DNA of 64,000 bases from Xiphophorus maculatus (lineage: Eukaryota; Chordata; Actinopteri; Cyprinodontiformes; Poeciliidae): contig NC_036451.1 in NCBI RefSeq assembly GCF_002775205.1, positions 20,570,351-20,634,350 on the forward strand, in the 5' to 3' direction. This document shows, one piece after another, positions 16,801 through 54,773 of this stretch. Positions within the stretch are counted from its first letter, which is position 1. Each line of letters starts with the position of its first letter. A program made the position numbers and the translations under genes. A model generated the notes under the pieces. That model did not search any database. It was not told the origin of the DNA and saw only the letters and a list, made by a program, of their open reading frames with translations.

Positions 16801-19800
16801 CGAAAGATCCAGATCCCGGCCACCTCCAGGCCGACGAGGGCCGCCTCTCAGTCCAACCTGCTGGATCAAGATCCGCCAAGGCGAGCGCGCCGCTACTCAG
16901 ACGGCAGCGACAACAGGGATGGCGGACGCTACAACAGCCGCTCCAGCCCCTCGCCTCAGCGCAACGGGCAGGTTGGGACGCTGCCGCTGATGTCCGGATA
17001 CAAGAAGCTGCCGCAGAACAACGCTCCAGACAAACCGATCAAAACCACGCTGGTTAAAAAGAGAGCCACAGATGGTAGGAGAACTGGTTGTAGGTTGTTT
17101 TAGTACCAAAATAATCTTGGTTCTTTAAATCGTTAAATTCTGTTTTGCAGAGTATGGACTGAAGCTGGGAAGTCAGATATTTATAAAGCACATGACAGAC
17201 AGCGGCCTGGCCGCCAAGGAAGGCACACTGCAAGAAGGAGACCTAATACTAAAGGTGAAGATTTCTGAATGCTGCATATGTAGTGGTTATAAAACTATTT
17301 TAGACAACCAAAAGGGAAAACAAGATCTAGTGATCTGCGATCGTTATTTTGGTCTTTCAAGTTCAGTGCTACAGACAGATACAGTAAAGGGTAGCCTAAG
17401 TTTAATAAAGTTTAAAAACAATGTATTTTTCTTTAATGTCACTTTTCCGGGTATGTTTGGTTATAATTCTTGAAAAGTTCAACCTTTTAGATTTTAAGTT
17501 ATGAGGGTTTAATCATTCGAGTTTCGATTGGTTTTGTCTGATCGGATGTAGGGGAACGCGACGCTTCTGCTCCTCCATTACAACACTGGAGACGAAAGCA
17601 GTGACATCGTGTCCGTGTTTTTATTATTCCCCTACAGATAGAGTCCTTACTCATAAGGGGCGTAACACATACAGACTGGTTGGAAAAGCATGAAAACTTC
17701 CTCTATCTGTTATGAAGGAAGAAATCTAATCACTGCTTTCTATTAATCCATGTTGAAATAGATCAACGGCATGACGACGGAGAACCTTTCCCTCCTGGAG
17801 ACCAAGCACCTGGTGGAGAAGAGCAGGGGCAAGCTGACCATGACGGTCCTCAGAGACGACCGCAAGTTCCTGGTCACCATCCCGGAGGTGGACGACAGCC
17901 CCCGAAACAGCGGGGACGAGCTGCGCAAGGGCAGCAGCTCAGAGCTGGAGGGTAAGAGTTACTCAGAGGCGGGGAGGGTGAATCTGAAAGAGTTTGGGCT
18001 CATCATCTCTGCATGCAGCTTGTCTGGGTAACTCAATCAAAACTGCTTTCTGTGACCAATCAGACATTTCAGACATTGAAGAGGACATCGCCCCTCGCCG
18101 GATATCACGTCAACACACCCGAGAGAAACGAACACGCAGGTACAGACCCATACCACTTTTTACATTTTCTTTCATTCGTTAGTTCCAATTTTTAAGTTGT
18201 TAAATATTTTTAACCCAGAACGAGAGCTGAGCCACCGCCCCGAGCCAAGTCCAGGGATTCATCGCCTGCACGCTCCACACTGACCCGGCCTGCTCCGAAA
18301 ACTTACGCCTCTCGCAGAGGTACATCCTCCAGAAAATTTGTTTCCTTTCAAAAATGCACATTTCATTGTTGCAATAAAAATGATCATCTGGAAAACAAAC
18401 AACTTTTGAGCTAAATGAGTTGAGCTGTATGCAAGTTAGTTTTCAGGTCCACCAACTAAACAAATCACATGTAGGCAGTAAGATGAAGTACGTTTATTGT
18501 TATTGTTGTTTCTAATTGTAAATAATTTTCTCGTCAGCTCCATCTGAGTCCGATTCGGACCGCAGCACTTCTCCTCCTGCCAGGAGAGAGATTCCAGTAA
18601 TGAAGGACCCCAGCAAATACAAGTCAGTTAACTTAGGTTAAAAATTATTTAAAGAGGTTTCTGACGTGTTCTTTGAAGTTAGACATTCACTGACATTCAC
18701 TACTTGATAGCTTGATTTTAAGTTCCTTTTTGAACCCATGTCATTTAGTTATTTTTAAATATATTTGTAATAGTTCTGCTTTCTCTATGAGCTGATTCAT
18801 AATTGTGCTATTACTCTTCTGCATTCACTTGATAGCTTTCTAATAATTATATCTTAGTGGGTTAGTTTAAAAAGTGTGTATCTTTATTAGCTCCCTGTAC
18901 AGTAAAGTGATAAAGATTCTTACTGTGAAGACTTTGATGATGTTTGTCTCTTCTTGCAGAGCTCTTCCAGGATTGGCCGCTCTCCCAAACCCACGATCTT
19001 CTCCTGTGCAGAACTGGACCTTAACCCGTCCCTCCTCCTCTTCCTCAAAGCCACGCAGGCCGGTGTCTGAGTCCGACTCCGACCGCAGCGCCTCCCCACC
19101 TCCACACAGAGAGAGCGCCCTCCCAGACACCAGATACAAGTACGGACTGCATTTTAATTCACTGAGAGATTTGAAGCGCTGGTGTGCTAAAATATTTAGA
19201 TAACCAAATCACATGGTGAACATAAGGAAATAGTTGACTTTTTAAATATTTAAAAAACTATAATAATAAATGATTCCCATCTCCTTTGCATTGTTTCTGC
19301 AGATCTCTTTCTGATCTTCCCCATGTTAGTCTGAAATCCTCCCCCATCACAGTTCGCCAAGAGCCACCAAGAAGAGTCAGCTCCCCTGTGAGGATCCCAC
19401 CCCCAGGTCTGTATAAACACAAAATAATCCAGCTTCCTTGTGATGTTGTGTACCCTCAACAACTCCCTGACAATATTCATTCTAGTTTTAAGTGCTTAAA
19501 ATAAAGTGTAAAAAGAGATGGCCAAGTACACAAGTGCTCAACACCTCTATGAATGTTTCGCTAGTTGCTTTAAAAAATACTCATTAACTTTAAAGGATTA
19601 GCACTCTAGTTGTCGGTACAAAATGAAAACATTATAATTAGAATAATAATTTACAAAGAAAATGTCACACTACAGCCTTGAGTGTTAATCTTTTACTGAC
19701 ATTTTAGATTATAAACGAAAACAAAGTAGTGCATAATTGTGAAACAGAAAATGATGCATGGTGTAAAAACACTGTTCAGTAACGAAACTGAAAAAATGTG

Positions 19801-22800
19801 CAATGCATTTCTGTTTAAACCCTCTGAGTCATTAGTTTCATTCCCCAACTTGCCCACAGCATGATGCTGTCTCCACCTTGTTGCATATTGAGGTTATTGT
19901 GTTCAGAGAGATTTTGTTTTTTGTTGCATGTACCTCAAAAATTCAGTTTTAAAACATTTTTCATTTTCCTTCCAGTTCACAAATATGCACTACTTTATCA
20001 ATCAAGCTCTTAAATCCAAATAAATTGCAGTTGCAACAAGATAAAGTGTAAAAAAAACTTCATGGGATGTGAACATGTTTGCAGAGCTCTGTGATGCTGC
20101 TTTTAGTTTACTTTGTAATAAGAGTTATTCTGCTATCCTCGTTTCCAGATTCTGATTCTGAGTCGGACAGCACGTCGGCGCCTCCTCAGAGGCACAGCAC
20201 TTCGTACAGCCAGGACTCGATCAGCAGATACAGGTACAGATGATGGTCCTCCAAAATCCACACCTGAAACTCTGCAAGAGTTCACGAAGCGGACACTGGC
20301 CAGACTTCACGGCTCCCCCACTGTTACCCTTAGCTAATCACAAACTGTCGTTTGATTTTGACAATTGAAGCCGCCCTCTCTGTTTTTTTGTGTGTGTTTG
20401 TTTATTCATTTGCTTATTCTGGACCAGTTTTTTTTTTTTTTTTTACTTGATTTATTTTTCAACTGTGTATCACTTGTGTTTAAATTTTTTGTTTAATAAT
20501 AAAATGAATAAAAGTGGCTTTTTACAGAACATGTATGTGGCTGTATTGATCAGAGTACTTATCAATGAAGCAGCGCTGCTCCAATCAGACGCCAATAAAC
20601 CGATCATTCATCAGTTCCTGCAAATCTGCCTGTGTTTCAAAGCATGATTTTTAAAATGAGGTTAGTTCAGATATTTACTGGCCCAGAGGCTTTACCTACC
20701 ACATGATTAAAATGGATCATTTTGATTGGTCACAATGCAGTTGACCTTCTCACAGAGAGCTCACCTCAGAGGTAATAAGGTGAATATTTACCACTTAAGT
20801 CTCAGATTATCATCAATATAGCCACGAGTCCCCCCCTCGTCAAACATAACTGAGATTTGTTGTCTTCCTCCTCCCTCACTCCCACCTCCCGCTTTTTTGT
20901 TTTGTTTATCTTCCAGGACCTTGCCGGAGGTTTCTCTGCAGCCTCCCGTCGAGCCGCCTCGATGGAGCGAAACCAGCGAACTGCCAAAGAAAGGTCAGCA
21001 TGGAAAAACCTTCTCAGTTTTCATTCTTTCTTTCTTTTTTTTTTTTTTTAGATTGCATTAAGTAGCTTTAAAACCACATTCCATATATTCACTGACCTTT
21101 ACAGCTAACTCGGACGCTGAGTCAGATGCCAGTGATGCATCCGCCCCCCGTAAGGACTCCTCAGGGGGCAGAAACTCAAACGCAGCCAAGGGGAGACGCA
21201 GGTGAGATACATCTCACACTCTCAGGTGGGCTTCATCTACTTTCTACAATGTCTGTAATCTACCAAGCACTGGGTTCCTGCACCAGGAAGCTTTCATGAG
21301 TTGGCACTTTTGTATAAACATAACCTTCCAAAACAATTGACTTGAGAGTTCCTCGAAGAAACTAAATTTAACCTCAGCTGTTGACAGTAAACCTGAGCAG
21401 GTGGACAGTCGGATCATAAAAATCCTATCACACTTTATAGGCTCACAGAGGCCTGCAAAGGTATCAATACCTGTTGTACTTATTTATGTTTTGTAATGTT
21501 ATAATATACACCAATGTATTTTAATAAGATTTTTAAATTCCTAAAGGTAATATTCAATCCACTATCACTAAATAAAATCTATTGTATGATTAAATAGATT
21601 TTTTTGTTTTTTTTAGAAATGGCTTGAAAAATCTGCCATTACAGATTCCTGTGAAAGTGTCCAGAAAATTGTTGGTAGAACAAAAATACCAATATTTAGT
21701 CTTACATTTTAGATTTTCAGCTTAAAACACCATTTCAGACTTTTATTTGCTTATTAAGTACAATTACTAACACAGGAGCATTTAACCTAATTTATATACA
21801 CTTACAGAACCAAGAAGGTCAATTTCTTGAAACAAGAGAAACGAGAGTGTTTGGTTTGTTTTACACAAACTCATCTGCCATCACTTTTTTTTACACTCTG
21901 CACACACTGGTGCACATGACATGACTTCCTGTTCAGATGGCATCACATTACATTTCAGCTGCTGAGAATCCAAAATACACCAGGATTACGTCACTCCATC
22001 GTCCAAACAACAAATTGTTCGTGTTTTAAACTAGTCCTTGTTGCTAAATATATCTGTCAATATATATTTATTAGCAATATCTAAATCTTTTTGACATAAA
22101 GCAAAGTGGATCAGAGAGAGGAGTTATATCTGACTCGCATAACAATACTCCAGTTCTGTATTTGTAATCTTTATTGGTTATGTTAAATTTCTCTCCAGTC
22201 TTCAGAAGCTGAAGCATGACTAATGAATATTTTAAGCAGAAAACCACAAATTTCTATTTCATAGTCTTTATGTTATTGACAAATAAGTTTTTTTTTGACA
22301 TTTTTTGTTAGAGTCCTGTCTAAGAAAGCAACTTCACTTGCTGCAAGAAGGGAGCCTTCACGTCGAGTCAAATCCCCCGCCAGGCCGCCTCCAGATGGTG
22401 GGTTTACTCCTTAATGTTGAGCTCTTATCGTCGTTTTTGACCATGCAAACTGTGACAGCAGAGTCTCTGAAAAGCCTCTTTTGTTTCTCTTTCAGATTCC
22501 TCCGAGTCAGACGAGCTTTCACATCTCAGAAGGTCTGGCAGCTCTGAGCGAGAGCAGGACCACCGCAGGTAACCTGAACAAATTAAACCAAAACTGAATT
22601 GTTGTTTTTTATTGTTATTATCAGATATACCTAAAAGGTGTCATCTCTTTTAAAACAAGTTAAAGTGGGCTATTAAGAAATATACCTATTATTTTCTAAA
22701 CTGATTTTTAATTATCTTGATATTCTAGTTAGTTGGACACATTTTTAAATGAATTTTTAATCGATTTTTATACTTTAAAATACTTTAAAAGAAGATAACA

Positions 22801-25800
22801 CAGCAATATATTAACTTAGTAAGAAAGGTGCCTTTTAAGAGACGTAGATTAAATCCGTTTCTGTTCATTTAACCTCTTCAGCATTTTACAGTAAAATAAA
22901 ATAGACGTTCTAAGTAAATATAACTTTTATTTTAAGATATGTAACAGGTTCTCAGTTCAATTAACTTAATAAATAAGAATCAAATCACTCCATTCATATA
23001 TTAAGAGTCCTTTAATTTGCATTCAGCTAAATGTAAGTTGGACAGAGATTTAAAAAAGGTTATAATGGATTACTTGGTGTCTTGATGGTTAAAAAAAAAA
23101 AAAAAAGTACAGATAATTTATAAAATGTGATGATTTTTTTAAAATCAAATAAGCCACTTTTTTCTTGTACTTCTTAAAAATACAAATTAATAAACAAAAC
23201 AAAAAGTTGGCCATATTTCAACTCTTGTTAGCATGCTGATTTAGTTTTTATTTTGTTGTTCAATTAATCTTTTTCTTTCATAGTTAATCCATCTTCTCTG
23301 AAGTTCTCTGTGATTTAATTAATCTTGTTTTCTCCATCCTCTAGCTTTATCTGCCATCAAATTAAGATTAATCTGTGTGACATATTTGTTTGAACCACAT
23401 AAAAAAGCTGCAGCAGTGAGATTGGAGAATAAAAATCTGTTTTTTACTCTGCAGTGTTCCTCGTGCTGCAAACGGAGGCGGCACCGTCCGGTCCGGGATT
23501 TCGGTGCATAACCCTCAGCTCTACTGTAAGCCTCGGGATAAGAAAGTTTAACATTTAAATTTATTTAAATTATTTTTAAAATTCTTATTGTATGGTTACC
23601 ATAGTTATAATTCCATCCATGAAATTAGCTAAACTGCGATGTTTTGATTTCTCTTGCAGCCAAACCTGCAGAGGAGCCTCTTTATTTCCTACCTCCTGAC
23701 TCTTACCCATCATCTAATCCTGGGTCAGGAATATATTCTTAACAAAATTCATCTGTATTTAAACTTCATAAAAATAATTCTAGTGATCTGATTTGTTTGG
23801 CATCTCATTCTTTTGTTTTCTGTAGGTACAGCTCTGACGTAAACACAGTGAGGTTTGTCAAAGGGCGCAGTTTGGGCCTCAGGCTGGTGGGAGGCAACGA
23901 TGTTGGGATCTTTGTGGGCGGAGTTCAGCCAAACAGCCCAGCATACGAGGAGGGAATGAAGGAGGGAGACCAGATCCTCAAGGTAACCTTATCTGAGTTG
24001 TTCACATTTTTATTTATTTTATTGGATTGAGGTCAAAAAAGTACAAATATAAACCAACTTAAAAACCTGTTTTAAAAAGAAGCTTGTTGGGAAATATGTT
24101 GTATGAGCGTTTCAAAGACCATACTATTGATGATATAACAAGTGTGTAAATAAATTGTACATCTAAAGATGAGAATGTGGTGTTTTAAATGTCATGTAAG
24201 GTAGAAATAATTTATGTTTATCTGGTGTTTGGACATTTAATTGTTTATATGTTGATGAGTATGAAAGGGGCAGGAAATCATAAGATCTTGTATCTTTTAC
24301 CTGCTCCTTTTTGAATAGATTATATAAAATTGCATGTCAATTGGGCGTGATAATTTGTTTTAATTTATTTATTTTTCCTTCTTTCTTGCTTTCATTTTTG
24401 TCTGTTCAAAATAATTTATTTATAAGTAAATGAATAAATTTGGTGATTTATTTGGCTTTTAAACTGAATCAAGTCTTTGGTCTTTGTTTATTTTCAGGTA
24501 AATAATGTTGATTTTGCCCATTTCACGCGAGAGGAAGCTGCCAACTTCCTCCTCAATCTCCCAGCGGGAGAGCGGGTGGAACTGTGCACTCAGAAAAAGA
24601 TGGACCGTAAGTGTGGAGCGCAGCTAATCATGGTATGATTTACTTTTAGTGTTTGTCAGTCCTAACTTCTACTCTATCTTCAGTTTACAAGAAGATCATC
24701 AAGTCCAACCTGGGGGACAACTTCTATGTCCGGACGCACTTTGACCACGAGGCAGATAACCCCAAGGGTCTGAGCTTCACCAGAGGAGAGGTGTTCAGGG
24801 TCCTGGACACGATGTTCACTGGGAAGATCGGCAACTGGCTTGCTGTCCGCATGGGGAACGACCTGCATGAGCTGGATAAAGGAACCATCCCCAACAAGGA
24901 GCGGTGAGGAAACGCATTATATTCCTCCTTAAGCTCTTTGATATGCAGCCACATTACAACCTCAAACTTTATTTTATTTGGATTTTATGTGATAAACCAA
25001 GACAAGTAAAGCATAACTGAAAGACAAAGGCACTATTTATTCATTTATTTTTTTTACGAATAACAAGTTGAAAAGTGTGGCATGAAATTTCAATCAACCA
25101 CATTTTTTTACTCTTAGCACAGAATCTGTTGGAGTTGGGTATTGACTTTGACTAGGCCATTTTAACACCTGAACAGTTTTGATCTAAGCCAGCTGGGTCA
25201 AACTCATTTCTGTGAACATTATTAAAAGACCAATTGTGGCAAGATGTATTAATAAAAGTGAACTGTTAAAACATTATAACTGTCTCTGCATTCAATGAGT
25301 TCTTCTTAAAGTTAAATAATTATTTATTATCCTTTCACACTGATAATTTATTAGTATAGAAACAAAAAATTATTTGACTTATAAAATATTTAAGTACACA
25401 ACTGATATCTTACCTGAGCTGTGGTTCTCTGTAGCTCCTCCAGAGTTACATCCAGTCTCTTTGCAGCTTTTCTTATTATAGTTCTTTCCCTGTTTCTCAG
25501 TTCAGAAGCATGGCCATATTTTGATCTTTCCATTTTCTATATAATGCTTTTCCCAGCTTTTTGCCACCAAAAAAAGTAAAAATTCAAGCCGTATTTTTCT
25601 TTCACTCAATGTATTATTGTCATATAAAGTTTTATTAAACACACTGAAGCTCAACGGTGTAATGTGGCAAAATCCGAAGACGGATTTGAATAAATCCCCA
25701 GTTTAAAATTTTCTTCCAACAATCGCCTCCCGCAGGGCAGAGAAGCTGGCCACCATTGAGCGAACGCAGCGGTCCACTGGAGAAAGGCAGGGAACCGGCC

Positions 25801-28800
25801 CGAGGGCAGAGTTCTGGAAACTGCGAGGACTTCGTGGAAACAAGAAGAACGAGAAGAACAACAGACGGACTCGGGAAGACCTGCTGCAGCTCACCATTCA
25901 GGGCAAATTCCCAGCCTATGAGAGGGTCCTGCTCAGGGAAGGTGGGCACGGGTCTCTCACACACGAACACATGGACACTGTTAGTTCAGAAAGTCACAGT
26001 CAGTTCAGTTTTAAAGCGGCTGATTGGTTGTTGTTTTTTTCTACCAGCTAATTTCAAACGACCAATTGTCATCCTGGGACCCCTGAATGACATCGCCATG
26101 GAGAAGCTGGCCCATGAGATGCCTGATGAATATGAGGTGGCAGGTTAGTTTATACTCATTGTTTGACCATTTCTAACCTTTCTCATGAATAACAGAAAGG
26201 CATTGCACATATTGAGGCTTATTATTTGTGTTGAACTTTATTTCCACAGAGATGGTTCCACGGGGTGGCGGAGGAGACAATGGCTCCACAGTTATTAAAC
26301 TGGACACTGTTAGGAGAATAGCAGAGAAGGTGAGAAGAAAACATTAAAATTCAACTTTAAATGCTTTATTTCTCAACAGTAGACATTTTGTTTCCTGTGC
26401 CATCTTCTGAATTATTTGAGTTTTTTTCCAGGACAAGCACCCCCTGCTGGACATCACTCCCACTGCAGTGGAGCGGCTGAACTACATCCAGTATCACCCT
26501 ATGGTGTTGTTCTTAGACCCCCACAGCCGCAAAGACGTCAAGGCAATGAGGCACAAGTACAAGCCCGACTCCAGCAAGAGCTCCAGACGCCTCTACTCCC
26601 AGGCCGTCAAGATGAGGAAACACGCCAACCATCTGTTCGCAGGTATCCCTCATGTTAGACGGTTAAATGCAAGATACATTAGTAGGGACAGAAGCGTTTT
26701 CCCCTCACTTTTGACTCAGCAACGTTCACGGTATTTCTCCTGGTTTTGCCCTTCAGCTCGGATAGACCTCCAGCCCGGCTCCCACAAGTGGTACGACTCT
26801 CTGAAGGAGAGCATCCGGCACCAGCAATCCAAACCTGTCTGGGTGTCAGAGATCACGGTATGTCACGCTGCTCCAATGACCACTGGGGATAATCTGGTAT
26901 AATAAAGCTCTCTGTAGTCCTGGATAGACCGCTACTCTTAGCTGAACAAGTGGACTTTTAAAACCTCTCCAAATCTCTCTTTGACTTTTAGATTTCTTTG
27001 GACTTTCATCTCCCCTTTTTTTTCATAATGTGATGCCATTGAGTAATCCATGTTGTTTGTCTAAACAGCATTCTTATGCCTTTAAACTCTTCCTGAATTT
27101 TGTCTGTCCTACATTAATAGCAATGCCAGTTTGATAATTGTCATATTACAGTTTGCAAACTGTTTGAGCCAACATGCATGCGATTTGTTCACATCCTGAA
27201 GTTTACTCATGTTGACCACATCTTCACAGTGGTTACACACACTTGTGTGTTCAAGGCGTTTCTCAAGCCAGGTTCTTTGTTTTGAAGAAGGAAGATGGCT
27301 TCATGACTTTAATTTTCAGAAATTGTGCCTGTCAAAAAGAAAACAAGGACAGATCTTAAACTGACTGAAGTGAGGCACTTTTAAGAATCACACAGTGGGG
27401 GAATTCATTTTGTTTTTCCATCAAATACCCAGTCTTACAATCAAGTACATTTGAAAAGACGCATTTTATAACCTGCATGGTGCGCAGTTTGAATAATACA
27501 CGACAGATTTAGTTAGGGGGCGCTGTAGTGCAATTATAAAGTTCTTCCTATTCAGCTTCATTTATTTAAAACCTCTCCACTCATGTTCTCTTCTGTCCAG
27601 CTGGAGAGCGGAGGGGTGCAGGACTTGGATGCTCTGGACCCGAGCCAGATGGACTACCTGAGCGCTGCCAGCGATCTGGAGGACACCGACGGAGAAGCCA
27701 TCACCGACGGAGAGGCGTACACCGACAACGAGGACCTGGAGGAGGCCTATCCAGGTCAGGAAGCCGCCAGGTTCCCACAAAGCTCCCGGGGACCCGGAGC
27801 TGCTCTGGCCCGATCGTCTGAACCCGCCTTAGAGTACGACACTCCAGCCGCTGATGAGGAGCCTGGTGACTACGGCTATTCGGACAGAGAAGTTCCACCG
27901 TTGATGCATGTGCCGGAGCCCAGGTCGCCCCGCCAGGAGGACTACAGCCCATCCCAGAGCCCTGCAGAGCAGGAAGAGCCGTCTCAACGCAGCTTTACAG
28001 ACTCTGACTTTGATGGTCTCGATGTAGACGAACCCAACACTCTCTCAGACGGACCGCCAGACTTTATAGCCCCTGACCCATCAAATCGACGATCGGTACA
28101 TGAGACATCGTATGGCGAGGAGCAGCCGGAGAGCTTCCCACCTGCCCCCCTGTCTGCTATTGAGGAGAGGCTAGAGCAGGTTTGTCCAAACAGAAACCTG
28201 AGTTTTATTTATTAAAGTCAATCTATGGTAGTTGAGAATTGTTATGGTCGTCACAATATTTGAGAAACAGCTTAACCCTCCACTAGCTTCTTACTGGAAT
28301 TAAACATGGAAGGAAAATAACTTATAAGACTTTAAACAATATGTTTTTAATTTGGCACATATTGGCCTTATGTAAAGAAAAAAAAACAATTTACAGAGTT
28401 AGTAAAGTCTTAACATACACTCACTAAGAGCATAAAGTTCCCATTTAGTTTGGGCCTTTTTTTGGTTTACTTGAACTTTAATTTTTCTATAAAATGATAT
28501 TAGACAAAATACAGCTTCTATGAAACTTGACAAAATCCACAAATTTTAATTTATTCTGGATTTTGTCTAATCCACACAGGGTAAAAAAATTTAAAATATA
28601 GGCTCAAATATTTACATACACTCCACTAATATTTGGAAAATGTATCTTTGAATGAGCTTCTGGCACAATAGTGACTGAATATTGTAGCCCAGAAAAGTGT
28701 AAACACTTTCCTGGCTACAGAAAGACGTTTTAGATGTTGCCCCAGAGTTCACAGATTAAAATGTTTTTTGTCTTCACCTGCCTACCATTTAGAAAACAAG

Positions 28801-46600: not shown

Positions 46601-49600
46601 TAAAGACCTACCTTAATGCCAAGTTTATATTTCAGTGCCAAAGTTATATTTACAACCTTCTGTTGTAAATTAATGATTAAAATTTTCAACGCATTTGATC
46701 AACTTTGAAAAATAAAGCATAATTAAAGATATGCCTCCGTTATTGTTTTACAAGGATTGTTTTCCCCACTGAGTAAATGGATTCAGTTTAAACATGAGCC
46801 ATTTCTAAAATATTCAGACAATATTGTACAGCAGTGACAGCTACGTTTACTTTAACATTTCGCATAAATCACCATCAGGCTCATGATGGAGGGCTCTGAA
46901 CGAGCCTCCGCATGCTTACAGTTTTATAAATTATAACTAGAAGCACTTCTGGTTTTGTCTGCACTTCTTTTCATTGTGTGGCATCACGGTAAAAAAAAAA
47001 AAAAAAAGACCCGAAAACTTTCAGGCTGATTTTTCTATCCCCTCCCAGTGTTTCCTGTCGTGTCACAAGCGTTGCCTGGAGACCCTCGCCATCCAGTGTG
47101 GCCATAAGAAGCTGCAGGGCCGCCTGCAGCTGTTCGGCCGGGACTTCACCCAGGTGGCGAGCTGCGCCAGCGACGGCATCCCCTTCATCATCACAAAGTG
47201 CATCTCTGAGATCGAGAGGCGCGCCCTCAAGATGAAGGTGAGGAGGCTCCCAATCTCTCCGTTCAAGACGTTTGGGCCGGTGTCAAAGTGTCGGCCGTGA
47301 ACCGCTGCCTCCTCTTCGCAGGGCATCTACAGGGTGAACGGCGTGAAGACCCGCGTGGAGAAACTCTGTCAGGCCTTCGAAAACGGCAAGGAGCTGGTGG
47401 AGCTGTCTCAGTGCTCGCCGCATGACATCAGCAACGTCCTCAAGCTTTACCTCAGACAGGTACACGAAGCATCCTAGAACAAGTACCCACACTTCATCAC
47501 TTCTTCTAGTCTCTCAGTTTGATTTTGTTTACCAGAGGTAAAATGGTAAGACATTAGATCCATTAGAGAACTGAATATTTGAACTTGCCAAGTTTGATAG
47601 TTTTTACTTTTTATATCTTTCTGTATTAAATCATTGCGATTAAAATTTGTGTATATATTATTCCCCTGGATTGGCCAGAAGTCGGTCAAATTTTAAAAAC
47701 GGATAATAAGGTGCCATTTTTAAACCTTTTAGCTAAACTAGGTTATAGATATGTTTTGCATAAATCTCAACTCTTGCTTAGATTCCAGTGCAGGAACCTC
47801 AAGAAACTGTTAAAACTGTGAGAGCTTGGCCCTCATTTTGCTTTGTATTTGATTCCAGTCGTCCTCGTTTCCATGTTATCTGAATTCTGTGCATCTGTTT
47901 CCTGTTGCCTCCAGCTGCCGGAGCCCATCATGCCTTTCCGTCTGTACAACACACTGATGGGTCTGGCCAAGGAGAGTTTGCACAGCGAGGGAGACGCGCC
48001 CGAGGGAGAGGAGGCCGAATCGAGCAGCGCCAACCCAGTAGCGGTCCGGGGCCCCGAGCTGGTGGACCTGGGGCCCGACTCGGACCGGGAAGTCCTTGTT
48101 TTGGTGGACAGTCTGAAGGAGCTGGTGAAGGAGCTGCCCAAGCCCAACTCTGCTACGTTGCGGTACATCGTTCGCCACCTTCGAAGGTCAGCTGGCAACT
48201 AGGACTTCTGCTAATGATTATTTCTGTTCTCAATTAATCTATCGATTATTTTGACGATTAATCGGATAACATTTGATTTGCACATCCTGCAGATTTTTCA
48301 TTTTAGCCTTTTTTTATACAACATTAAAAAATGCAAATAAATAATTCAGTTCCTTTTTTTTCTTACAATGAGAAGATGAACATTTTATTGCCTAAATGCA
48401 ACAACATGGCATTCCTTTAGTGAACAGCAAAATATACTTCAATACTTTTCAAGTTTTGTCCTTTCTGCTTGATTTTGACATCAATACAGTGTTGTAGGGT
48501 TAATATGTTTAATTTTTTGATTAAACACCTCTAATTGGATAACCAAAAGATGTTTAATAGATTTGTTGTGCAGAATTTGAACTAAAATATTTGAGGAGTT
48601 CTGGGTTTTTCCTCTTGAATGCAAAATATATATATTTGTACAATTTTGGTTTAATTACTGTTGCTGTTCTTTCTGCAAATTGCATTTTTTTGAGTCTCTA
48701 TACTCCAATTAACAATTAATTGATAAATCTGTTGACGATTTCAGTAATTGATTTATCACGATCAATTCGATTAATCATTTCAGCTCTAAATAAAACCACT
48801 AGTTTCCATGCGGTCCCACTGACTAAGTTTCTGTTGATCCAGGATTGCAGAGCTGGAGGAGGACAACAAGATGAGCCCCAGCAACTTGGGCATTGTGTTC
48901 GGGCCCTCCCTGATGCGTCCCCGTCCCACCGGGGCCACGATATCCCTGTCCTCTCTGGTGGACTACCCTCACCAGGCCCGCATTGTGGAGGCCCTCATCG
49001 TCTTCTACTCTTCAATATTCCAGTCGAAAACCTCCCAGACCAACAAAATCGCACGCTCCACATCTACATCCACGCAGCAGGTAGGTGCTGGGAAATATTT
49101 CAGTCAGTACAAATATTTCAGTCAGTACACAAATATTCATTAACCTAGAATTTTTTCTTTTCTCTTACTACAAACTTCCAACATCGTTCCTAATTGTAAC
49201 ATTAAAAATTTTAAGAGTGATGTCTCATAAAATTCCAATTAAATACATTAGTTTCCTCTAACATGACGAATTTTAAAATATGAAGCAGTTTTAAGATTTT
49301 CCAACCAATCTATTCAATATAATATTGATATTGAAGCATATGTCAAACTCGAGGCCCACGGGCCAAATTCGGCCCACCAGAACTATTTCTATGGCCCACC
49401 AGGCGGCCACAGAAATACAACTTCAAGATAATAGTTGTGTGTTTAAATATTATTTTATCAGTCAAATTAGTTTCTGTTTGTATGAATTACTTGGCCTTTA
49501 AATATAATTTTTTCATAAAGGTACAATATTTTACCAGTTGATCAATTTCTGCCTCAACCGGATCTTTGAGGACATTCATGGTGTGGCTGGAAATGAAAAT

Positions 49601-50504
49601 GAGTGTGATTAATTTTTATTTCCTTGCTCTAAGGAGCACAGAAAGTTGATCAACTTCACATCTGTTGTAAGCATCAATTTTCCATTTGAAATGCACATAA
49701 GCATCTTTGTAAACAATATAAATATGGTTGGAAACCCTCCATAAAACCCAGGAACTGTTCAGTTGAAACTATTTTAAGATTGTCTCATGTGATGCAATGT
49801 GTTAAATGAAGATAAGCAAATCTCTCAAACCTCCCCCGTCGCCTCACTCAATCAGGAAAGTGTTGGAGTTAAGATGGAAAGCACTGGAGATGGAGAAGAG
49901 GATGGAAGCAAAGACGACCAGAACAAGCCGGACTCAGACAGACAGGAGGAGGGCTGCGGTGAATTTCTATATTAACTCAAATCTTTTGAAATCCTCTCTG
50001 AGTAAACAAGGTTTTTAAGTTTGGATGCTCATTTCTAAACCAGGAAGTTCTTTGGGATCGCTGGGCTCCAGCGACCCGCTCCCCGACTCCGACTCGGAGC
50101 TGGACGAGGGCAGCCACAGCTCCAGCAGGCTGATGAAGCAGGAGAGCGTGGTGAGCACGGAGGACGAGCAGCTGAGCTACAGGGACAGCCTGGACCTGTC
50201 CGGCCACTCCGCCACCCACACCGACCCGGAACAGGACACAGAGCAGGATCTGGACATCCCCGAAGGAGACGGAGAAGGAGAGCCCCCCGCTGTGCCGGAG
50301 AGCGCCCCGCCAGAGGAAGACACAGCAGCAGCAGAGCAGGAAGTCACGACCTCACTGGCTGAGCTCAGCGTGAACCAGTCCAACAACAACAACAACCAGC
50401 TGAGCTCCCCCATAGCCAGCCTGTCGGGCGTCCCGCTGGCCTGCCTGTGCAGAAAGAATCTACCGCTGACAAGGAGGCGGGACACAGAGCCTGAGTTTGT
50501 CTGA
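32016..50504 (+). CDS. arhgap45: Rho GTPase-activating protein 45 (HMHA1)
   Basis: Stimulates GTP hydrolysis by Rho-family GTPases and binds membranes through an F-BAR domain. Exons: 32016-32111, 34004-34253, 34696-34878, 39089-39229, 39306-39390, 41347-41419, 41530-41605, 42442-42573, 43446-43507, 43618-43728, 43818-43898, 43980-44147, 44315-44452, 44552-44748, 45385-45494, 45604-45687, 45881-45982, 46071-46234, 47049-47237, 47322-47459, 47915-48186, 48843-49080, 49856-49958, 50044-50504 (1217 residues, frame continuous). Start MFRKKPRELIKTPSISKK matches the human N-terminus; an ATG eight codons upstream (31992) is also in frame. Domains: F-BAR about 300-570 (EVDVILQRSEGGVDSALVYA), zinc-binding C1 about 725-771 (CRECDSYVYF, CHKRCLETLAIQCGH), RhoGAP about 785-1010 with arginine finger R818 in GIYRVNG. 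The acidic/serine tail ends NQSNN...EPEFV as in human. Human length is about 1136 residues. Confidence 0.95.
32558..32686 (+). CDS. arhgap45: Alternative first coding exon of arhgap45
   Basis: An open stretch from ATG encodes 43 residues (MLKRSNKNSYNPYSTTQ...SIWLKQ) and ends at aaacag, then gtagga, a good donor. Its phase (0) equals that of the main first exon, so it can join exon 2 at 34004. The peptide is basic and not low-complexity. No other gene nearby could use it. Its existence as an exon is inferred from frame, start and donor only. Confidence 0.5.
36178..36183 (+). terminator. Possible intronic polyadenylation signal in arhgap45
   Basis: AATAAA inside the long intron 34879-39088. 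Reading through the donor at 34879 adds a short tail and a stop (34941-34943), so a truncated message ending here is conceivable. Confidence 0.25.
36395..37265 (-). pseudogene. Decayed Tc1-like transposase and flanks
   Basis: The minus strand at 36609-36794 still reads a transposase-like segment (LLWSDETKYYV, the DE-containing block of Tc1 transposases). It is followed by a stop and then a remnant of the Lys-His-Gly-Gly-Ser block (36540-36600). The outer parts resemble the ends of the same family (aagtggaaggaaatgatgc; gtggctataaatacttgtatgg). Not functional. Confidence 0.7.
37590..37638. repeat. (AT)n/(GT)n compound microsatellite
   Basis: AT tract with one interruption, followed by about nine GT units, in an arhgap45 intron. 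Confidence 0.9.
38280..38510 (+). repeat. Dispersed repeat family X, copy 3
   Basis: Blocks gaccaggaagatactg, aaatatccaaaataaaac, aaaaacgataaata, aagtctctgtaaac and atttatcatgtggataattgatg match, in order, the copies at 11655 and 16095. All three are in the same orientation. Confidence 0.5.
40461..41103. mobile_element. hAT-like inverted-repeat element in an arhgap45 intron
   Basis: Starts tagggctgaaacaattgaatt and ends tagctgcagcccta, with matching TTAAT-rich arms (gattaatggattgaat). It resembles the 'agggctgcaactaacgatta' class of short DNA elements widespread in fish. No transposase frame. Confidence 0.5.
42665..42960 (-). mobile_element. Tc1-like terminal fragment
   Basis: Begins cagtggcttgtgaaagtatt, then cacattacaaccacaac and ggggattttacatgacgggc. 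This is a well-preserved end of the same Tc1-like family as at 24940 and 36395. Confidence 0.6.
44801..45093. mobile_element. Short inverted-end dispersed repeat
   Basis: The left end ggggtgtcaaa and the right end gtttaacac form an imperfect inverted pair. The right part reads gcgggccggatttagccccc, typical of a common fish repeat. Related end sequences occur at about 25185 and 49336. Confidence 0.5.
48205..48790. mobile_element. hAT-like inverted-repeat element in an arhgap45 intron
   Basis: The left arm holds aatctatcgattattttgac, then gattaatcgg. The right arm holds cgattaatcatttcagctcta, an inverted partner. Same class as the element at 40461. Confidence 0.55.
49336..49420. repeat. Fragment of the 'tgtcaaactcgaggcccacgg' repeat
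   Basis: Contains tgtcaaactcgaggcccacg, then ggccaaattcggcccacc, an inverted copy of the right part of the element at 44801. Only one end is clear. Confidence 0.45.

Positions 50505-54644: not shown

Positions 54645-54773
<129 letters not shown>

Follow-up and report, generated by a model that had tools for sequence, protein, structure and literature searches.

The stretch of Xiphophorus maculatus DNA analysed here, hereafter the window, comprises 64,000 nucleotides (nt; C9:20570351-20634350 of a 704 Mb assembly) and carries on its + strand a ZO-type gene in which 12 exons between positions 17951 and 23826 encode the linker between the second and third PDZ domains (PDZ2 and PDZ3). We consider it probable that this linker grew from a three-exon unit, termed A-B-C, by tandem duplication of an exon pair, and that it forms a longer, constitutive phospho-spacer. 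Pfam matches to PDZ and SH3_2 were found in the spliced protein of the window and a match to Guanylate_kin (GUK) in an exon at about 26.4 kb, and PDZ2, PDZ3, SH3 and GUK follow one another in the order of the ZO/TJP family. The PDZ2 part is similar to the solved ZO-1 chain 3cyy, and the PDZ3 part to ZO-1 PDZ3 chains. In a comparison with hand-typed human segments, the PDZ3-SH3 portion reached 60% for ZO-1, 60% for ZO-3 and 57% for ZO-2 (207, 199 and 189 bits, respectively, ZO-1 being best), whereas a single PDZ3 exon, likewise compared with hand-typed human sequence, reached 90% and 87% for ZO-1 at two other loci of the same genome (on C2 and C4, respectively) and 85% for ZO-2 at a third (on C8). 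Because the gene of the window is close to neither ZO-1 nor ZO-2, unlike these three loci, it appears by exclusion to be tjp3 (ZO-3). The zebrafish gene set comprises tjp1a, tjp1b, tjp2a, tjp2b and tjp3 (PMC10703405).

The linker exons, numbered e1 to e12 (Table 1), were called by hand from the genomic sequence, without a transcript. GT...AG ends were found at each of the 13 introns that lie within 17952-23825, and the 12 exons splice into one open frame that encodes a linker of 366 residues, while the alternative two frames over the same exons contain 6 and 18 stops. The spliced frame and the GT-AG check bore out the exon coordinates, motifs and phases given in a preliminary description of this DNA. 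The intron phases are, in order, 1, 2, 1, 2, then the 2-to-2 exon e4, and then 2, 1, 2, 1, 2, 1, 2, 1, 2; the strict alternation of phases 1 and 2 that had been described thus holds along the linker and fails across e4. Exons that run 1-to-2 are called heads here, and those that run 2-to-1 are called partners.

Three further ZO loci in the same genome were used for comparison, with their linker exons called by hand and hand-typed linkers of human ZO-1 and ZO-2 as guides. The human ZO-1 linker matches the C4 and C2 loci, whose genes are termed tjp1a and tjp1b, respectively, with arbitrary letters, and the human ZO-2 linker matches the C8 locus. Each of the three shows three linker exons, A, B and C, with phases 1-to-2, 2-to-1 and 1-to-2 and with sizes of 133, 140 and 106 nt on C4, 145, 134 and 106 nt on C2, and 106, 128 and 73 nt on C8, so that linkers of 102-128 residues compare with 366 in tjp3, and 3, 3 and 3 exons with 12. 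Every residue of the human ZO-1 linker was accounted for on C4, and all of the ZO-2 linker save two residues between matches; a profile search of the paralog linkers with the tjp3 modules gave no additional copy (best E 1.4). A second ZO-2-like locus was not recognised among 13 genome matches, from which the weak ones on C37 and C11 were left out. The first ten bases of e1, ACATTTCAGA, are the same in both ZO-1-like A exons. Since the ZO-1-like and ZO-2-like exons already alternate in phase, alternation alone is no evidence of amplification, and the earlier use of it as such a sign had to be given up. Phase alternation is an old pattern of the ZO family, and it is the five extra pairs that are special to tjp3. 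A one-to-one set of exons in ZO-1 and ZO-2, named earlier as the result that would speak against a local expansion, was not present at the three paralog loci compared in this genome, and the proposed amplification of about five extra cassettes, local to tjp3, is supported by the exon counts together with the similarity among copies described below. Human ZO-3 has a short linker and is not known to carry the extra modules.

Similarity among the linker exons was assessed with seven head units (e1, e3, e4b, e6, e8, e10 and e12) and six partner units (e2, e4a, e5, e7, e9 and e11), e4a and e4b being the two parts of e4. In local protein alignments judged against residue shuffles, p<0.05 was reached by 7 of the 21 head-head pairs, 4 of the 15 partner-partner pairs and none of the 42 head-partner pairs; no correction for the number of pairs was applied to these p-values, and the contrast between the classes is the evidence. 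When residues were shuffled only inside blocks of eight, so that the layout of acidic head and basic tail was preserved, the counts at the same threshold were 7/21, 4/15 and 1/42, and 11 of 1716 class labelings, with the true one counted, equalled or beat the true labeling. The suggested self-alignment of exons therefore shows that similarity within classes exceeds composition (11/36 pairs within, against 0-1/42 between). When partner and head were joined into one unit, 4/15 pairs reached p 0.01 or below, and 6/15 pairs of head-plus-partner units reached p<0.05. Serine is encoded by two codon families unconnected by single substitutions, and aligned serines of the head class (e1, e3, e4b, e6, e8 and e10) have the family in common in 36 of 41 pairs, compared with 25.3 +- 3.3 when codons were redealt (p 0.004). 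In DNA, the sole clear match is that between e3 and e4, with 78% identity over 49 nt (E 2e-8); over the same stretch e6 is 61% identical.

Individual exons contribute unequally to this picture. Leave-one-out profiles, scored by the number of 500 shuffles that did as well, supported the heads e3 (0), e4b (0), e6 (13) and, as a borderline case, e8 (25), and the partners e5 (0) and e9 (20); the profiles did not support e2 (72), e4a (478), e7 (236), e10 (247), e1 (315), e11 (308) or e12 (500). Pairwise comparisons under the two shuffles gave p 0.004 (residue) and 0.002 (block) for e2-e4a, z 8.9 and 6.7 for e5-e9, p 0.004 and 0.011 for e6-e8, with e6 also similar to e3 and e4b, p 0.009 and 0.016 for e2-e11, p 0.009-0.027 for e1 against e8 and e6, and a weak p 0.048 and 0.032 for e5-e7. 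As judged from these alignments, the head class has four well-supported copies and the partner class two well-supported matches, e2-e4a and e5-e9; the remaining exons are placed mainly on phase and position. Copy similarity beyond composition, as tandem exon-pair duplication predicts, is thus present, even though e2, e4a, e7, e10, e11 and e12 fail the leave-one-out profile.

Aligned with spliced e2+e3, the fused exon e4 scored 72.5, compared with 19.1 +- 9.0 and a maximum of 63 in 1000 codon shuffles, and the alignment spans most of the length of e4; it is gapped, but no gap falls at the e2/e3 junction, and a split of e4 at that junction gives an e4a of the same length as e2, 101 nt. Against e5+e6 the score was 45.0 (null mean 12.3). 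The previous reading of 18960-19139 as a fused pair was borne out by this alignment with joined 18219-18319 and 18538-18622, and e4 is probably a pair that lost its internal phase-1 intron. Intron loss is the simplest explanation, because a phase-1 intron lies between B and C at all three paralog loci and at each of the five remaining partner/head boundaries of tjp3.

Table 1. Exons of the PDZ2-PDZ3 linker of the window gene and the exons that flank them (positions in the window)
Feature	Position	Strand	Basis
e0, last PDZ2 exon, ends in phase 1	17762..17951	+	spliced frame; aligned to PDZ2 exons of three same-genome paralog loci
e1, DISDI exon, 1-to-2, in the position of exon A of ZO-1/ZO-2	18064..18139	+	spliced frame, phase, position
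e2, 2-to-1 partner, 101 nt	18219..18319	+	similarity to e4a
e3, 1-to-2 head	18538..18622	+	DNA match to e4; leave-one-out profile
e4, fused 2-to-2 exon (e4a + e4b)	18960..19139	+	lines up with spliced e2+e3
e4a, 101 nt	18960-19060	+	split set by analyst at e2/e3 junction
e4b	19061-19139	+	split set by analyst at e2/e3 junction
e5, 2-to-1 partner	19303..19406	+	similarity to e9; profile
e6, 1-to-2 head	20149..20233	+	similarity to e3, e4b, e8
e7, 2-to-1 partner, net charge -1	20917..20993	+	phase; weak similarity to e5
e8, 1-to-2 head	21105..21201	+	similarity to e6
e9, 2-to-1 partner	22312..22397	+	similarity to e5; profile
e10, 1-to-2 head, DSSESDE...	22496..22568	+	phase and acidic head
e11, 2-to-1	23455..23525	+	phase and position; pairwise match to e2
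e12, 1-to-2, positional counterpart of ZO-1/ZO-2 exon C	23660..23723	+	phase and position
e13, first PDZ3 exon, entered in phase 2	23826..23982	+	Pfam PDZ; match to ZO-1 PDZ3 chains

The modules had been described as serine/arginine (SR)-like, and this part of the description did not hold: an SR-repeat domain was rejected on a count of 12 RS/SR dipeptides in the tjp3 linker, below the 18.6 +- 3.7 of shuffles, and the repeated feature is instead an acidic serine cluster of the CK2 type. The linker contains 10 copies of the strict acidophilic motif [ST][DE]x[DE], compared with 1.3-1.5 expected, at residues 3, 62, 64, 124, 126, 184, 186, 239, 300 and 314, all of which lie in e1, e3, e4, e6, e8 or e10; the first motif of each of these exons stands at residue 3, 62, 124, 184, 239 and 300, about 60 residues apart. 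The strict motif is missing from e12, and its counts in the paralog linkers are 0, 0 and 1. Enrichment in the tjp3 linker does not extend to the loose motif [ST]xx[DE] (13 vs 11.0 +- 2.7), and Ser/Thr-Pro is low (7 vs 12.8 +- 2.9). The basic character ascribed to the partner exons is seen in five of six by net charge, and e7 (-1) does not share it. As a separate observation, the ZO-1-like linker on C2 is RS-rich by virtue of its exon A (C2:6604859-6605003, RHRSSRSRSPDRRSEPSDHSRHSP), with 10 RS/SR against 4.5 +- 1.9, and that on C4 is not (3 vs 2.2). At tight junctions, CK2 is reported to act on occludin and to alter ZO-2 binding (PMC3695765), which is no demonstration for ZO-3.

On these data we propose the following history. 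The ancestral linker would have consisted of the three exons A-B-C, still held by the ZO-1-like and ZO-2-like genes, and a pair, most likely A-B, would have been duplicated in tandem repeatedly, with breakpoints in phase-1 introns, until one pair had become six; e4 would then have lost its internal intron. The model starts from the observed exon counts, phases and similarity of several copies, and from it we infer the breakpoints, the order of events, the founder, and the membership of e7 and of e10 to e12. The reading frame survives any copy number because each pair is entered and left in phase 1. The outcome would be a low-complexity, probably disordered linker of about three times the length of its paralogs, in which an acidic CK2-type serine cluster recurs at intervals of ~60 residues, separated by stretches that are mostly basic and rich in proline. 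Phosphorylation of the clusters by CK2 or a similar kinase may change how far the spacer between PDZ2 and PDZ3-SH3-GUK reaches and how it is charged, and the enlarged linker would most likely serve as a longer spacer, included constitutively, with a charge pattern governed by such phosphorylation. Splice variation in the number of pairs is possible but secondary.

The age of the duplications was estimated from fourfold sites, which differ at 9/19 between e2+e3 and e4 and at 26/42 between the two ZO-1-like linkers, both counts being drawn from few sites. The duplications look old on this measure, and even the closest visible one does not look recent, so that other fishes should share the expansion and the near absence of intron similarity fits. 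Self-alignment of exons and introns had been suggested as a check, and its two halves diverged: class-specific similarity was found among the exons, and no clear similarity was found among the introns. Phase-1 introns of the linker are mostly short (112, 218, 742, 111, 98 and 134 nt) and phase-2 introns more often long (79, 337, 163, 683, 1110, 886 and 102 nt), a contrast that might reflect partner plus head as the unit moving together. Profile matches to further relics in the tjp3 introns, the paralog linkers and the rest of the window had E 0.29 or worse, and none was accepted. A scan of contigs of other genomes gave one match (36% over 59 residues), on a bacterial metagenome-assembled genome (MAG) contig, and a scan of viral contigs gave none.

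The identity of the founder is less well determined. From position and phase, e1 is the A exon and the probable founder of the head class, and e12 is the C exon. Matches of e1 to paralog A exons gave p 0.027 for C2 and were not significant for the other two, and e12 matched none of the three paralog C exons; nor is there a match between the C exons of the ZO-1-like and ZO-2-like genes, which indicates that ZO linkers evolve fast. By summed score, e2 matches the partner copies (e4a, e5, e7 and e9; p 0.016) and e11 does not. Among 18 tests of 9 paralog exons against two models, one ZO-1-like B exon against the partner model (13/500) and the ZO-2-like A exon against the head model (27/500) came nearest; both are of the fitting class, yet unremarkable among so many tests. 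Several results weigh against growth by pair duplication. In summed tests against the head copies, neither e1 nor e12 nor any paralog A exon of the three loci was significant, and the best score of the founder tests was obtained with a ZO-2-like B exon (p 0.009), which is of the wrong class. A search for duplicated intron sequence and breakpoints found a single intron-intron match (32 nt, E 0.08), but a lack of such similarity is expected if the duplications are old, and shared intron sequence is not required of old duplications. Exons e7, e10, e11 and e12 are assigned mainly by phase or position. A further paralog linker exon may also have gone unrecognised, given hand calls guided by hand-typed human linkers.

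The most serious rival to a phospho-spacer is neutral drift in length, in which pairs were tolerated in a disordered spacer and the repeats are without function. This account is compatible with the same duplication history, and the strong divergence of the copies and the weak conservation of the partner class agree with it, so that we regard it as a live contender, somewhat short of an even chance; it has difficulty with the acidic cluster, which six head exons have retained, ~60 residues apart, while the remaining sequence has diverged. We consider it rather unlikely that regulated skipping of pairs varies linker length and phosphosite number by tissue. Nine of the 11 adjacent exon pairs are frame-neutral, as is e4 alone among single exons, in agreement with the claim that pairs and the fused exon can be removed without breaking the frame, and all 36 frame-neutral skips among 78 contiguous ones read through without a stop. 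Frame neutrality follows from phase alternation, however, and would exist anyway; hence it is no evidence of skipping, and every cassette except e4 would require the joint skipping of two exons. The 12 linker donors score slightly lower than 9 donors elsewhere in the gene (p 0.09) and lower than those 9 together with 9 paralog linker donors (p 0.04), a marginal difference obtained with a hand-entered weight matrix over part of the gene. A more elaborate idea, to which we give little credence, is a copy-number-tunable phospho-spacer: the six clusters and the basic stretches would make up a chain with patterned charge, phosphorylation would determine whether this chain collapses or condenses, and pair number, varied by duplication and skipping across fish species and tissues, would tune ZO-3 in the junction. 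It is very improbable that the long linker is ancestral and that ZO-1 and ZO-2 lost pairs. The duplications do look old, with the fourfold differences between e2+e3 and e4 set against those of the ZO-1-like pair, but the divergence between e2+e3 and e4 is smaller than that between the two ZO-1-like loci, the human ZO-3 linker is short, and ZO-1 and ZO-2 would have had to contract independently to the same three-exon state. Convergent composition in a low-complexity linker, with phases merely inherited and no duplication, can be put aside as most implausible, because class-specific similarity persists under block shuffles, serine codon families are shared, e3 and e4 match in DNA, and a passage from 3 to 12 exons at unchanged alternating phases needs duplication or many intron gains, even if the phase pattern is partly inherited and e7, e10, e11 and e12 show little beyond composition and phase.

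Other features of the window were also recorded. Downstream of GUK, a period-18 tandem repeat of 2.4 copies at 27683-27726 gives an acidic TDGEA repeat in an open stretch. A further gene lies downstream on the + strand at ~46900-50500; its exon at ~48.8 kb is similar to the end of a RhoGAP domain (Pfam) and is preceded by a cysteine-rich exon without a Pfam match, and we take the gene to be of the ARHGAP45 type. A TAA microsatellite of 37 copies (96% match) occupies 54661-54772.

Growth by pair duplication, if correct, means that the linker of a junction scaffold was enlarged by way of an exon pair whose phases predate the split of the ZO genes, and that a regular array of likely phosphorylation sites arose in one ZO paralog only. 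Exact deletion of cassettes would make it possible to ask how the length of the linker and its number of phosphosites affect a ZO scaffold. No report of exon duplication in the ZO-3 linker was found among the open-licence papers listed, as judged by titles and the beginnings of abstracts.

Among systems that invite comparison, the PDZ2-PDZ3 linkers of ZO-1 and ZO-2 themselves share with tjp3 the position, the A-B-C phases and a DISDI/DISEI start; unlike tjp3, they have three exons and 102-128 residues, and the acidic cluster is not enriched. The SR repeats of ZO-2 are likewise a serine-rich segment of a ZO protein and are reported to be under kinase control, being phosphorylated by SRPK1 (PMC6747478); the tjp3 modules have fewer RS/SR than shuffles. 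Tropoelastin (eln) resembles tjp3 in having two contrasting kinds of exon, crosslinking and hydrophobic, repeated many times. It differs as an extracellular elastomer with far more copies, and its 36-nt and 48-nt exons are each whole codons, whereas the tjp3 pairs run 1-2/2-1. In the PEVK region of titin the units are single exons, with documented splice isoforms, whereas those of tjp3 are pairs. Titin PEVK is described as a charged spring region that has expanded and contracted as exons were duplicated or lost, and whose length is varied by splicing (PMC6469411). The event proposed for tjp3 is thus a known evolutionary route in another protein.

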